Assembly (NCBI RefSeq): GCF_017094485.1
Contig: NZ_CP064786.1
Location: 2,918,788 to 2,982,787 of the forward strand
Length of the DNA: 64,000 nucleotides
Origin: Natranaeroarchaeum sulfidigenes
Lineage (GTDB): Archaea; Halobacteriota; Halobacteria; Halobacteriales; Natronoarchaeaceae
Direction of reading: 5' to 3'
A model generated the notes under the pieces. It was given only the letters and a program-made list of their open reading frames with translations, was not told the DNA's origin and did not search any database. The position numbers and the translations under genes are program-made. This document shows, piece by piece, positions 58,069 to 63,172 of the stretch (position 1 is the first letter of the stretch; every line of letters starts with the position of its first letter).

Positions 58069-58845
58069 TCAGCGCTGCTCGAACGTCTTTTCTGCCCACG
58101 CAACCGCGTACTCGGCTCCCCGATCCCGGTACACGTCGGTATCGAGTGCCGTGTACGGCGCTGGAAGTTCCAGCGCGTGTTTGATCGAACTGCAGGCGAG
58201 CTCGGTCGCATCGGCGAAGTCGGTATCGCCGTGGGCCATCGCACTCGGGAGCCCAGAAAGCCGCCCCTCGATCCGCTCGCCGGCGTCCTGCCACGCCTCG
58301 CCCAGCCGTGGGTGGACGTCGAGCCACTCCGCGAAGACGTCCCGTGTCTGCAGTCCGAGCCAGCCGTCGTACAGCGCGGCGGCGATCTGATACGTACTGT
58401 TCGGGCCGAGGTCGACAGCATCGTCGAGCGCGCGATACTCCTCACCGAAGAACCCCAGAAAACCCTCGGGGGCGTCGAGGCCAACCTCGACGAGCGCTTC
58501 AGCGATCAGGAAATCAATGAAGTCCTCGGGAGAGCCCTGTACCCGGGGCTTGACGATGACGACAGGTGGGTCGGTCTGGTGAGTCCATGCGACGCTCCCG
58601 TCGCCGGGCAGCCCGATCGTGAAGTCCGACCCGGCATACCGGCGAAGCACCGTCGGCACGTCCTCGGGAAGCCACTCGGCGGGAGCGGTGTAGGGGTCGA
58701 GCGCGTCGACGATCAGGCCCAGATCCTCGGCCTGTGCGGACGGGACCGTCTTGAAATCCGACGCGGCGTCGACGACGATGGCCGCCGGGGCGTGCGCGTC
58801 GCGGACAGCATCGAGATCGTCTGGGAGATCACGTACCTGGAACAT
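58069..58845 (-). CDS. Haloarchaeal hypothetical protein (DUF7089-like)
   Basis: 258 residues, no enzyme motif recognised. Alpha-helical, acidic, with Trp/Tyr-rich positions (YDGWLGLQTRDVFAEWLDVHP) and a small segment VVIVKPRVQGSPEDFIDFL. I recall this family as DUF7089. Its ATG overlaps the TGA of the preceding tiny membrane gene (ATGA), so they are translated together. Convergent with the KaiC-like gene. Confidence 0.6.
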   Translation of the reverse strand: MFQVRDLPDDLDAVRDAHAPAAIVVDAASDFKTVPSAQAEDLGLIVDALDPYTAPAEWLPEDVPTVLRRYAGSDFTIGLPGDGSVAWTHQTDPPVVIVKPRVQGSPEDFIDFLIAEALVEVGLDAPEGFLGFFGEEYRALDDAVDLGPNSTYQIAAALYDGWLGLQTRDVFAEWLDVHPRLGEAWQDAGERIEGRLSGLPSAMAHGDTDFADATELACSSIKHALELPAPYTALDTDVYRDRGAEYAVAWAEKTFEQR

Positions 58846-58934
58846 CAGGCGAGCAGGTTCTGCAGGATCAATGCGACAGCGAGCACGCCCGTGACACCGA
58901 TCGTTCCGACGACGATTTTGGTAGCCTGACTCAT
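58845..58934 (-). CDS. 29-residue single-helix membrane protein
   Basis: MSQATKIVVGTIGVTGVLAV is followed by ALILQNLLA: one membrane helix and almost nothing else. It overlaps the next gene by one base (stop of this gene, start of the 58069-58845 gene), a coupling typical of true small genes. Function unknown; it may anchor or assist the downstream protein. Confidence 0.6.
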   Translation of the reverse strand: MSQATKIVVGTIGVTGVLAVALILQNLLA

Positions 58935-59013
58935 ATTCGATGGGAGGTGGGCCGGTCGCTTAAAGGCTTTCAGATACGTCCTCTCTCAGTCAATAAATCC
59001 GTTGCCGAGCGAA

Positions 59014-59180
59014 CGATGGGATTTTGCGCCCGCCGAACCAGGCCCGGGTATGAACCTCACAGACCGCCCCCGTCGGCTTCGCCGCGACGGGATCCGCGAA
59101 CTCGTCCGTGAGACGGAGCTTTCGGCAGCCGATCTGATCGCGCCGGTGTTCGTCGACGCGACGACCGACGAGCGCGTCCC
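59014..59180 (+). repeat. Left copy of the hemB 5' duplication
   Basis: 167 bases match 62156-62322 with about nine mismatches by eye and no gap. The copy includes 36 bp upstream of the ATG and the first codons of hemB. See the hemB pseudogene entry. Confidence 0.85.
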
Positions 59181-59200
59181 GCTCTACGATGCCGTCGCTC
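59050..59200 (+). pseudogene. hemB: Truncated 5' copy of hemB
   Basis: From ATG 59050 the frame reads MNLTDRPRRLRRDGIREL and follows the intact HemB for about 44 codons, up to TTDERVP. It then reads LYDAVAR where intact HemB has LEEAVDR, lacking the 11 residues IETMPGHERVP in between. In the intact gene these 33 bp lie between two copies of ACGAGCGCGTCCC (62310-62322 and 62343-62355), so the copy lost them by recombination between direct repeats. The rest of the gene is absent, and the stop end of an inverted trkA-like gene follows at once. It cannot encode an active enzyme. Confidence 0.85.
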
Positions 59201-59201
59201 G

Positions 59202-59867
59202 TCACCCACGGAACAGGTTGACTACCTCGTCGGCGACAGCCGGCTCGGTAGCGAGAATGTACTGACGCCCGGCAACGAGTTCCGTGTCGGGACCCGCGAT
59301 CGAGTCGGAGTCGTTCTCCGAGATCACGAGGCTCCCCCTCGGAAGCGACACCTCACTCAGTGTTCGACCGGCAACAGGTGCGGCCGATCCCGCCGTTATT
59401 TCGAGGATCCGAACGTCACCGACCGTCGCCTTGAGCGTTCGGACGCCCGTCTCGATCGCGCTGGCCGCGGCACCGGCTCCGGATTCTTCGGGGGTGAACG
59501 TGGCATCCACGAACTCGCCGTATTCCGAGCCGTCGTGAGTGGTCCGCATGACCGTTCGAATGGACGGGTTCGTCTCCCTCGCTATCGTACAGGCGGCCAG
59601 ATTCGTCCCTTCGGTATCAGTCAGCCCCGCGATGACGTCCGCGCTCTCCAGATCCGCCTGTCTGAGTACCGAGGGACGCGTCGCATCACCGTGGATCACC
59701 GTGGCGATGTACTCGTTTTCGAGCAGTTGTACTCGATCGTCCCGGCGCTCGACGACGACGACATCGTGGTCGTGTTCGGCCAGTATCCGGGCTGTCCTGA
59801 GTCCCGTGCGTCCACTCCCCACGAGGACGACACGGAGTGGCCCGTTGGAAGGTTGAAAGGAGCTCAT
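59202..59867 (-). CDS. TrkA-like RCK protein, copy 1
   Basis: 221 residues. The Rossmann domain (LRVVLVGSGRTGLRTARIL, residues 11-29) has the RCK-type GxGxxG and a terminal acidic residue after the second strand (VVVERRD), fitting NAD binding. A TrkA-C (RCK-C) domain covers about 140-221 and ends NLFRG. Such soluble proteins gate K+ or other transporters. About half identical to the 61456 protein and in the opposite orientation, bracketing the APC permease. Its stop abuts the hemB fragment. Confidence 0.85.
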   Translation of the reverse strand: MSSFQPSNGPLRVVLVGSGRTGLRTARILAEHDHDVVVVERRDDRVQLLENEYIATVIHGDATRPSVLRQADLESADVIAGLTDTEGTNLAACTIARETNPSIRTVMRTTHDGSEYGEFVDATFTPEESGAGAAASAIETGVRTLKATVGDVRILEITAGSAAPVAGRTLSEVSLPRGSLVISENDSDSIAGPDTELVAGRQYILATEPAVADEVVNLFRG

Positions 59868-60030
59868 GCCCTATCTTTTCTTGCCAATTCAAAAGAAAGT
59901 ACGCACGTGGCAGGTATCGTCCTTATACGTCTTTGTATGGTATTTATTTCGTATTCTATGGGGGAAACTATTATGCTTGATCAATTATATCAATAGATTA
60001 CGCTCGATGGCTCCGAGTGTGTTATAATCG

Positions 60031-61440
60031 ATGTCCGAGCAACAGACACGGGAGCCGCAGGCCGAACTGGGGCTGCTGGATGCGACGATGATCGGGATGG
60101 GGGCGATGATCGGTGCGGGAGTGTTCGTGCTCACCGGCCTCGCGGCGGAGATCACCGGTCCGGCGGTGATCCTCGTGTTCTTCCTCAATGGAATCGTCAC
60201 CGGGTTCACTGGGTTGGCCTACGCCGAACTGTCGAGTGCGATCCCGAAGAGCGGGGGCGGATACGCCTTCGTCGAGGAGATCTTTTCCGACGTGGCTGCT
60301 TTCCAGATGGGCTGGATGCTCTGGTTCGGCTACATGATCGCGGGTGCGCTGTACGCGCTTGGGTTCGCTGCGAACCTCATCGAGTGGATCCAGATTTACT
60401 GGAGCGGCTTCCCCGCTGGCTCGGTACTCGGCGGGCTTACGAGCTGGACCGTGCTGTACGCGTTCAGCGTCGTCGCCATGCTGATCGTATTGAACGTCCT
60501 CTCGACGGCTGCGAGCGGCGCGGCGGAAACCGTCGGGACGATCATCAAGGTCGGTATTCTCCTCGTGTTCTCCGCGTTCGGAGCGTTCGCAATCGATACC
60601 GGCGAGTACACCCCGGTGTTCCCCGAGGGCGTCGGTGCGATTATCCCCGCCATGGGGCTGACGTTCATCGCGTTCCAGGGATACGATCTCATTTCGACCG
60701 TGACCGAGGAAGTCGAAAACCCACGCGAGAACATCCCGAAGGCGATCTTTCTGGCACTCGCAGGCACCATTATCGTCTACCTCGCGGTCGTCGTGGTCGC
60801 GGTCGGAACCCTCAGTGCCGATCGACTCGGGGCGCAGGGGGAGACGGCTATCGCCAGCGCCGCCGGGGAGTTCATGCCCGAAATTCCGGTTCTCGGACCG
60901 GGTTCGACGCTCATCTGGTTCGGTGCGGTCTTCTCGACGCTTACCGCACTGAATGCGGTCGTGATCGCCTCCAGCCGTGTCGCCTTCGCGATGGGGCGTG
61001 ATCGGCTGTTCCCGTCCCGCGTCGGACAGATTCACCACCGGTTCGGAACCCCTGCACTCGGTGTCGTCATCAGTGCCGCCGTGATGTTGTTATCGGTGGT
61101 GTTCCTCCCGATTCAGATGGTCGGCAACCTGTCGAGTCTGTTCTTCCTGCTGGCGTTCGTCGCGGTGAACGCGGCGGTGATCAAACTCCGCCGCGAGCGC
61201 CCGAACATGAACCGGCCCTACGAGATGCCGCTGTATCCAGTGCCGCCGATTCTCGGCATCGTCTTCAACATCGGCATCGCCGGGTTCCTGGTCGTCAGGG
61301 ATCCCGTGACCGGAGTACTTGCGGCGGGATGGCTCACGCTCGGTGTCGGGGCGTTCTTCCTGCTGAAACGCACCGGGTTCGGCGGCGGAAAGATCACCTC
61401 GGATGAGCCCCAGACCGACCCACAGACACTCGATGACTGA
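60031..61440 (+). CDS. APC-superfamily amino acid or cation permease
   Basis: 469 residues, about 12 membrane helices. Start MSEQQTREPQAELGLLDATM; helix 1 has the substrate-backbone motif GMGAMIGAGVFVLTG (residues 24-38), then YAELSSAIPKSGGGYAF near 70 and FIAFQGYDLISTVTEEVENP near 215. No fused UspA domain, unlike many haloarchaeal APC proteins. It is flanked on both sides by RCK proteins, which suggests nucleotide-gated transport. Substrate unknown: amino acids by family, but RCK partners make K+ worth testing. Confidence 0.85.
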   Translation: MSEQQTREPQAELGLLDATMIGMGAMIGAGVFVLTGLAAEITGPAVILVFFLNGIVTGFTGLAYAELSSAIPKSGGGYAFVEEIFSDVAAFQMGWMLWFGYMIAGALYALGFAANLIEWIQIYWSGFPAGSVLGGLTSWTVLYAFSVVAMLIVLNVLSTAASGAAETVGTIIKVGILLVFSAFGAFAIDTGEYTPVFPEGVGAIIPAMGLTFIAFQGYDLISTVTEEVENPRENIPKAIFLALAGTIIVYLAVVVVAVGTLSADRLGAQGETAIASAAGEFMPEIPVLGPGSTLIWFGAVFSTLTALNAVVIASSRVAFAMGRDRLFPSRVGQIHHRFGTPALGVVISAAVMLLSVVFLPIQMVGNLSSLFFLLAFVAVNAAVIKLRRERPNMNRPYEMPLYPVPPILGIVFNIGIAGFLVVRDPVTGVLAAGWLTLGVGAFFLLKRTGFGGGKITSDEPQTDPQTLDD

Positions 61441-61455
61441 GACACAGTACAATCC

Positions 61456-62109
61456 ATGAGCACACGAGACCTCGACGTTGTGATCGTTGGCGGCGGCCGG
61501 GTTGGCCTCCGCACCGCACAGACACTCGACAACCGCGGGCACGATATCACCGTCATCGAGCAGGACCCGGAACGGAGCGATCGCATCGCCGACGAGTATA
61601 TCGCCACGGTGATCAACGGTGATGCGACGCGTCCCTCGATACTCAGGCAGGCGGACCTGGAGAGTGCGGACGTGCTTGCGGCCCTGACCGCTGACCTCGG
61701 GACGAACCTCGCCGTCTGTCTGACCGCCAGGCAGTACGGTTCGCCAATACGGACCGTGATGCGACGGCTGGAAGACGATAGCGACGAGTACGGGGATCTC
61801 GTCGATTCGACAGTGTTTCCCGAACAGGCCGGGGCACGGATCGCAGCGAACGCCGTTGACTCCGGCGTCCGGGCGCTCGAAGACATGGTCGGCGACCTGG
61901 AAATCCTGGTGATCGAAGTGACCGAATCGGCGCCCGTCGCCGGCCGGACGCTCGGCGAGATCACGCTCCCGGAGGGAAGTATCATCGTCTCCGGGGCCGA
62001 CGGCAACGCGACTGCCGGTGCCGGGACGAGACTCGACCCCGGCCAGTCCTACGTCGTCGCAACCGAGTCGGACGTCGAAACGGAGATCGTCCGGCTGTTC
62101 CGCGGGTGA
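61456..62109 (+). CDS. TrkA-like RCK protein, copy 2
   Basis: 217 residues. RCK-N Rossmann domain (LDVVIVGGGRVGLRTAQTL, residues 6-24) and RCK-C domain ending RLFRG. It starts 15 nt after the APC stop and is very likely co-transcribed with it. The stretch coding EYIATVINGDATRPSILRQA is nearly the same at DNA level as in copy 1. Copy 2 looks like the main partner of the permease because of its position. Confidence 0.85.
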   Translation: MSTRDLDVVIVGGGRVGLRTAQTLDNRGHDITVIEQDPERSDRIADEYIATVINGDATRPSILRQADLESADVLAALTADLGTNLAVCLTARQYGSPIRTVMRRLEDDSDEYGDLVDSTVFPEQAGARIAANAVDSGVRALEDMVGDLEILVIEVTESAPVAGRTLGEITLPEGSIIVSGADGNATAGAGTRLDPGQSYVVATESDVETEIVRLFRG

Positions 62110-62155
62110 GGTTCCGGCCCTCGGGGCTGATCTCGGCTCTCCTGCAGCCAGGAGC

Positions 62156-62322
62156 CGATGGGATTTTGCGCTCGCCGAACCAAGCCCGGGTATGGACCTC
62201 ACAGACCGCCCCCGTCGACTTCGCCGCGACGGGATCCGCGAACTCGTTCGGGAAACGGAGCTTGCGGCGGCCGATCTGATCGCGCCGGTGTTCGTCGACG
62301 CGACGACCGACGAGCGCGTCCC
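62156..62322 (+). repeat. Right copy of the hemB 5' duplication
   Basis: Matches 59014-59180 over 167 bases with about nine mismatches by eye; includes the hemB upstream region and its first 44 codons. Confidence 0.85.
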
Positions 62323-63172
62323 CATCGAGACGATGCCGGGCCACGAGCGCGTCCCGCTTGAGGAAGCCGTCGACCGGGTCGAGGAGGTGCTCGAAACGGG
62401 TGTCAGCGCCGTCATTCTCTTTGGAATCCCGGAATCGAAAGACGCCCGCGGCACTCGGGCGTGGGCCGAGGACGGCGTGATTCAGGAAGCGACCCGGCGG
62501 ATCACGGCCGAAACCGACGCCTACGTCATCACCGACCTCTGTCTGTGTGAGTACACCGACCACGGCCACTGTGGCGTGCTCGAAGACGCCGCCGCCGAGG
62601 AGCCACGGCTGACCGTCGACAACGACGAGACCCTGGAGCTGCTCTCGCAAATCGCCGTCTCACAGGCCGAGGCCGGTGCGGATATGATCGCCCCGAGTGG
62701 CATGATGGACGGAATGGTCGGAACGATCCGCGAGGGGTTGGATCGGGAAGACTTCCAGGACGTGCCGATCATGAGCTACGCGGCCAAATACGAGTCCAGT
62801 TTCTACGGTCCCTTCCGGGACGCCGCCGACGGCGCACCCGCGTTCGGGAACCGGCGACACTACCAGATGGATCCGGCCAACGCCGAGGAAGCGATCCGCG
62901 AGGTCGCCTTAGACGTCGAGCAGGGCGCGGACGTCCTGATGGTCAAGCCCGCACTGCCCTATCTCGATATCGTGCGGGATATCGACCGGAAGTTCGACCG
63001 GCCCGTCGCCGCCTATAATGTCAGCGGCGAGTACGCTATGCTACAGGCCGCCGCCGACCGGGGCTGGCTCGATCTGGAAGCCACCGCACTGGAGTCGCTG
63101 ATCTCGATCAAACGCGCCGGCGCGGACCTGATCCTCACCTACTTCGCCGAGGACATCGCGGAGCACCTCTAG
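62192..63172 (+). CDS. hemB: Delta-aminolevulinic acid dehydratase (porphobilinogen synthase)
   Basis: 326 residues, complete. It joins two 5-aminolevulinate molecules to porphobilinogen on the way to heme and cobalamin. The metal-binding Cys region is LCLCEYTDHGHCG near residue 116, and the two catalytic Lys lie in SYAAKYESSFYGPFRDAA near 195 and MVKPALPYLDI near 250. Start MDLTDRP at 62192. Its 5' end is duplicated at 59014-59200, on the other side of the RCK/APC module. Confidence 0.96.
   Translation: MDLTDRPRRLRRDGIRELVRETELAAADLIAPVFVDATTDERVPIETMPGHERVPLEEAVDRVEEVLETGVSAVILFGIPESKDARGTRAWAEDGVIQEATRRITAETDAYVITDLCLCEYTDHGHCGVLEDAAAEEPRLTVDNDETLELLSQIAVSQAEAGADMIAPSGMMDGMVGTIREGLDREDFQDVPIMSYAAKYESSFYGPFRDAADGAPAFGNRRHYQMDPANAEEAIREVALDVEQGADVLMVKPALPYLDIVRDIDRKFDRPVAAYNVSGEYAMLQAAADRGWLDLEATALESLISIKRAGADLILTYFAEDIAEHL

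Follow-up and report, generated by a model that had tools for sequence, protein, structure and literature searches.

Do the two RCK genes that face outward from an APC-family permease gene in the haloarchaeon Natranaeroarchaeum sulfidigenes belong, together with that gene, to a single transport system? RCK domains gate K+ channels and cation transporters, and a first reading made from the letters of the DNA (the sequence-only reading) had interpreted the locus as a possible nucleotide-gated amino-acid or K+ transporter with two interchangeable or hetero-oligomeric regulators. We analysed the locus within a 64,000-nt stretch of DNA (the window) from the N. sulfidigenes genome (G000), a single contig of 3.04 Mb. 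The features of the locus are collected in Table 1. The described arrangement proved exact in coordinates and strands: both outer proteins match the PF02254 TrkA_N profile (E 1.5e-23 and 1.1e-24), and the AA_permease_2/APC protein between them has, as claimed, nothing fused to it. A TATA-like TTATAT is located at position 59985 of the + strand, inside the region between the rck1 and permease genes, and no known RNA families were found in the region. Our analysis makes it likely that the three genes constitute one transport module, in which rings of RCK proteins would gate a CAT-like permease.

Table 1. Features of the rck1–permease–rck2 locus, in window coordinates
Feature	Position	Strand	Basis or remark
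Left flank, 317 nt without mismatch to congener G006 (surroundings ~83-92% identical)	58676..58992		Putative recombination tract
hemB 5' remnant (pseudogene fragment), left direct-repeat copy	59014..59197	+	ALAD, E 3.7e-7
Inserted cassette, 2958 bp, between two hemB 5' copies	59198..62155		Missing in congener G006
rck1, 221-aa RCK protein (TrkA_N + probable TrkA_C)	59202..59867	-	Divergent from permease; profile match
Putative gene-conversion tract in rck1, codons 52-77, EYIATVIHGDATRPSVLRQADLESAD	59637..59714	-	Codon alignment
Divergent promoter region	59868..60030		38.7% GC vs 62.6% in the window
APC-family amino-acid permease, 469 aa, unfused	60031..61440	+	PF13520, E 1e-52
rck2, 217-aa RCK protein	61456..62109	+	15 nt 3' of permease; profile match
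Putative gene-conversion tract in rck2, codons 47-72	61594..61671	+	Codon alignment
Right copy of the repeat, with the intact hemB (CDS 62192-63172)	62156..63172	+	Repeat alignment, profile match
Right flank, 332 nt without mismatch to congener G006	62156..62487		Putative recombination tract

The sequence-only reading regarded conserved separation of these genes in other genomes as evidence against a joint system; we found the opposite. Named relatives of the permease all come from haloarchaea (class Halobacteria), and 80 named haloarchaeal loci together with those of G000 and G004 gave a sample of 82 permease loci. An RCK gene neighbours the permease in 80 of the 82, mostly directly downstream, with a median of 3 nt from the permease stop to the RCK start (≤5 nt in 58 of 76 cases, 6 overlapping). 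The other two loci are no clean counter-examples, since their contigs end next to the permease (on the 3' side in L110 and on the 5' side in L095). In a second sample, which partly overlaps the first, RCK genes were adjacent in 29/29. The order of the genes varies while adjacency is kept: the RCK gene can be downstream, divergent only (L070 and L084), upstream on the same strand (L106) or present on both sides. No other neighbour family occurs in more than 16 of 80 loci, so the surroundings vary while the permease–RCK pair stays. Among 117 genomes, 22 contain both families, 2 only the RCK, none only the permease and 93 neither (p = 8e-22, relatedness ignored). The subfamily occurs in 74 of 293 genomes and 28 of 87 genera, a patchy distribution, and 19 records of it are plasmid-borne. 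Comparison of the permease and RCK trees gave a Mantel r of 0.79, a value to be expected from linkage alone. Taken together, gene order and co-occurrence strongly support the view that the permease and RCK genes form a real haloarchaeal module, and they fit a bound subunit and a co-regulated sensor alike. A search for natural APC–RCK fusions gave none; the long frames encountered, for example in L066 and L136, were out of frame or separate genes. On plasmid pHS3 of Halobacterium salinarum the order is TrkA–TnpB–APC–TrkA, where a gene for a TnpB-family RNA-guided endonuclease (L167, 2045-3304) separates the divergent RCK gene from the permease gene.

The permease has the AA_permease_2 fold, in a structure model of only moderate confidence (pLDDT 72), and its neighbours in sequence and fold are GkApcT (5oqt/6f34, the best match), BasC, LAT and MjApcT. 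GkApcT/CAT (SLC7) and MjApcT are its closest solved relatives. The TM1 GxG region is invariant in the subfamily, as in GkApcT/CAT, and the GkApcT-type TM5 lysine K173 (K191 in GkApcT) and TM6 aspartate D219 (D237) are present in 53/53 permeases. GkApcT couples protons via the TM3 glutamate E115 (PMC5803215), whereas the corresponding position is A in 41, T in 11 and G in 1 of the 53 permeases, so GkApcT-style proton coupling is not to be assumed here. Judged by its residues, the permease may be a facilitator, an exchanger or an otherwise coupled transporter. We infer that it is a CAT/ApcT-like amino-acid transporter; of the two substrates proposed earlier, an amino acid fits better than K+, since the closest solved structures, CAT, LAT and ApcT, are amino-acid transporters. 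The paper on GkApcT reports no RCK partner. Most permease paralogues in G000 carry a fused USP domain, so the permease of this locus has its regulator in trans. The haloarchaeal APC–USP fusions belong to the same permease family, occur in the same genomes and also have a nucleotide-binding regulator, but theirs is a USP in cis; if the module is real, haloarchaea use two solutions for one permease family. A TrkA-type gene adjoins 3 of the 6 permeases of G000. Two of the USP-fused ones (L162 and L163) adjoin TrkA-type double-RCK genes, one being located beside Na+/H+ exchangers, two of which have TrkA_N domains, and the other between TrkA and TrkH. The same genome encodes an RCK_N–DHH fusion (L164:5613-7100), possibly a nucleotide phosphodiesterase, about 2.1 kb away from a USP-fused APC permease.

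Both RCK proteins, which are 54% identical to each other, have a TrkA_C (PF02080) match at the C-terminus that scores 25.1/25.2 bits against a Pfam cut-off of 27 (E ~1.7e-5). The AlphaFold2 model of the rck2 product (pLDDT 88.5) matches the folds of TrkA, TM1088B, MthK and KtrA over its full length. Like KtrA/TrkA-type subunits (KtrAB, TrkHA), both proteins have a Rossmann RCK_N domain with GxGxxG and an acidic residue at the end of β2, a PE cation motif and a probable RCK_C domain, and they are separate cytosolic proteins encoded beside a transporter gene. They differ from KtrA/TrkA in being single-RCK proteins of 217-221 residues, often present as two paralogues with one divergent, and in having an APC amino-acid permease rather than TrkH/KtrB as the partner. 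GxGxxG, E35, GD, T78 and R103 of the nucleotide site are retained in both, and G12, E35, G55, D56, N84 and R103 are invariant in an alignment of 63 RCKs that includes rck1. In Thermotoga TM1088A, AMP is contacted by D37, G57, A59, T80 and R105 (PMC4380455); E35, G55, A57, T78 and R103 correspond to these residues at a constant offset. E125 of the KtrA PE motif is an intra-dimer cation cofactor site (PMC6957272), and the equivalent E123 is present in 57 of 63 RCK sequences and in both proteins of this locus. Since the AMP-contact residues and the PE glutamate are both present, nucleotide binding by RCK1 and RCK2 is likely. The predicted binding half of the proposed nucleotide gating is well supported by residues, while gating itself is argued by analogy. 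The two gene products TM1088A and TM1088B form one octameric ring (3l4b), and TM1088B is the closest full-length single-RCK match by sequence as well as a fold match. The Thermotoga pair differs from the haloarchaeal one in that TM1088A has no RCK_C, the genes overlap in tandem and the annotation assigns the pair to a K+ transporter.

The identity of the ligand is where the strongest alternative lies: the RCK proteins could sense c-di-AMP and not NAD(H)/ATP, in the manner of the RCK_C domains of KtrA or CpaA. c-di-AMP was reported to be essential in Haloferax volcanii (PMC6741144), and on plasmid pHH126 of Haloarcula hispanica a diadenylate cyclase gene (L169, 6173-6724) adjoins an APC–RCK operon, a gene for a double-RCK protein and TrkH. 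However, a DAC-like ORF occurs in 0/82 loci, which leaves pHH126 a single case and led us to reject signalling through a neighbouring cyclase, and what is conserved in the RCKs is the N-terminal nucleotide site. We therefore regard c-di-AMP sensing as unlikely, though to be kept in mind. An NAD-binding gene product of pHH126, considered as a DHH phosphodiesterase, turned out to consist of two RCK units, which ruled that assignment out.

A second alternative takes the RCK proteins as additional TrkH K+ subunits whose place next to the permease reflects nothing more than a shared response to osmotic stress. RCKs are the classic partners of TrkH/KtrB, TrkH genes are located ≤8 kb away in the Haloferax, Halogeometricum and Halobium loci, and in G000 it is another permease that stands between TrkA and TrkH. 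Yet the short RCK family tracks the permease and not TrkH: TrkH is present in 110 of the 117 genomes, including 86 of the 93 without the short RCK family, and shows no association with it (p = 0.34, relatedness ignored). The TrkH loci carry their own double-RCK TrkA, the gene for the membrane partner encodes an APC permease and not TrkH/KtrB or a K+ channel, and the tight permease–RCK coupling is kept over many genera. On these grounds we consider the role of extra TrkH subunits distinctly improbable. It is more improbable still that the RCKs never contact the permease and instead work on transcription or signalling in its vicinity; haloarchaeal Lrp regulators too bear TrkA_C domains (PMC8229911), but RCK1 and RCK2 contain no DNA-binding domain, and RCK_N and the probable RCK_C fill their whole length.

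The near-identical stretches in the two inverted RCK copies, pointed out in the sequence-only reading, are real, and the inverted repeat (59574-59716 / 61592-61734) is more similar than protein conservation accounts for. It is not a long near-identical repeat, as it comprises 143 nt with 81% complementarity around a core of 26 codons (78 bp). Within the core, rck1 and rck2 are 92% identical in DNA, in comparison with 59% elsewhere and only 67-76% to their true orthologues, and codons for the same residue are identical in 20/24 cases, against 39/91 outside the core (Fisher p = 4.6e-4). Recent gene conversion between the two genes best explains this pattern, as judged from the alignments. The idea that crossover between the RCK arms flips the permease segment and swaps the RCK ends as a form of phase variation is the least probable of all the readings, even though the repeat with its homogenised core makes recombination between the arms probable: the near-identical core is short, the cassette has no recombinase gene, and no alternative arrangement was seen. 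In SHR40 (L057), the one relative in which both RCKs have orthologues, the gene order is identical, and both halves of rck1 and rck2 group with their own SHR40 counterparts. The inversion proposed earlier was therefore dropped as a main reading.

The history of the RCK pair differs from that of the permease. In the RCK tree, divergent upstream RCKs form three separate clades (Haloarcula/Halorubrum/Halobacterium; Haloquadratum/Halorubrum saccharovorum and relatives; G000 and SHR40), and a fourth clade contains the upstream RCKs on the same strand. According to this tree, a divergent second RCK arose at least three times. Each of rck1 and rck2 pairs with the SHR40 gene in the same position (support 100/99), whereas the SHR40 permease is nested deep in a different clade from that of G000, and a joint clade was rejected (AU p = 0.008, to be read with caution because of long branches). 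Between G000 and SHR40, rck2 is 74% and the permease 63% identical; the identity of the SHR40 permease reaches 83-87% with permeases from loci in which the RCKs match those of SHR40 at only 43-50%. Since the RCKs pair G000 with SHR40 and the permeases do not, RCK pairs are exchangeable between permeases, and the trees indicate that they have switched partners. This result supports the earlier description of the regulators as interchangeable and argues against a tightly co-evolved, specific permease–RCK interface. The hetero-oligomeric arrangement, the other option of that description, would be plausible. A downstream RCK gene in L100 (9485-10138) comes from an otherwise divergent-upstream clade, likely a second swap.

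In the proposed mechanism, the RCK proteins would be dedicated regulatory subunits of the permease, with the Rossmann domains mediating their assembly into dimers and rings. Their ligand would be an adenine nucleotide of the NAD(H), ADP/ATP or AMP class, the PE glutamate perhaps holding a divalent cation as well, and from the cytosol they would either open the permease or lock it. The product of rck2, encoded in the permease operon, would be the core subunit, and that of rck1, expressed from the divergent promoter, a second, paralogous subunit that could mix into the rck2 ring or replace it under other conditions. The contact between permease and RCK, the assembly of rings, the identity of the ligand, gating and the substrate are elements that we infer. 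The locus thus probably encodes a nutrient transporter controlled by the energy or signalling state of the cell. We extend the mechanism only tentatively, with more doubt than conviction, to a heteromeric ring of two exchangeable paralogues expressed from opposite promoters, whose make-up would set the nucleotide response of the LeuT-fold permease, the second RCK having been gained independently in several lineages of haloarchaea and the pairs being transplantable between permease clades.

In the literature we found no precedent for a LeuT-fold transporter gated by RCK and no published RCK–APC system, and a conserved transport module of this kind has apparently not been reported before. KimA (KUP family) is another LeuT-fold superfamily transporter under nucleotide control, in its case by c-di-AMP (PMC10284832), but it is a K+/H+ symporter that has no RCK and binds the nucleotide directly. 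If the module is real, with a conserved RCK partner serving an amino-acid permease, RCK control would reach beyond K+ channels and cation transporters to LeuT-fold nutrient transport. Permeases that naturally have one regulator or two, in different positions or swapped, would offer a test bed.

Direct repeats of the hemB 5' end bracket the three genes, a feature missed in the earlier reading. The remnant at 59014-59197 aligns with 62156-62322 at 95% identity over 167 nt, and the left copy (counterpart 62156-62372) has lost 33 bp internally, in one deletion between two ACGAGCGCGTCCC repeats. The cassette between the repeats (59198-62155) contains only rck1, the permease gene and rck2, and no integrase or transposase, expected of an autonomous mobile element, was found in it. 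The congener G006 has a single hemB and no cassette; absence from this one congener compared suggests a recent insertion. Two blocks, 649 nt in all, are 100% identical to G006 (L129) amid surroundings of ~80-92% identity, which points to recent homologous recombination between congeners on both sides of the insertion. Integration by a single crossover, from DNA that bore the cassette plus a 5' piece of hemB, would yield the observed structure. The left hemB copy retains the native upstream sequence, the right copy includes 36 nt ahead of the ATG, and a search of 61991-62200, in front of the intact gene, gave no TATA-like motif; given this short upstream region and the missing motif, transcription of hemB, which is an essential haem gene, may now depend on the permease–rck2 operon. 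In G006 an insert of ~516 bp is located exactly at the junction upstream of hemB that matches window position 58992/58993. It has a hairpin-like CCTCCACCTGAAGGTGGAGG near one end and is possibly an IS or MITE remnant.
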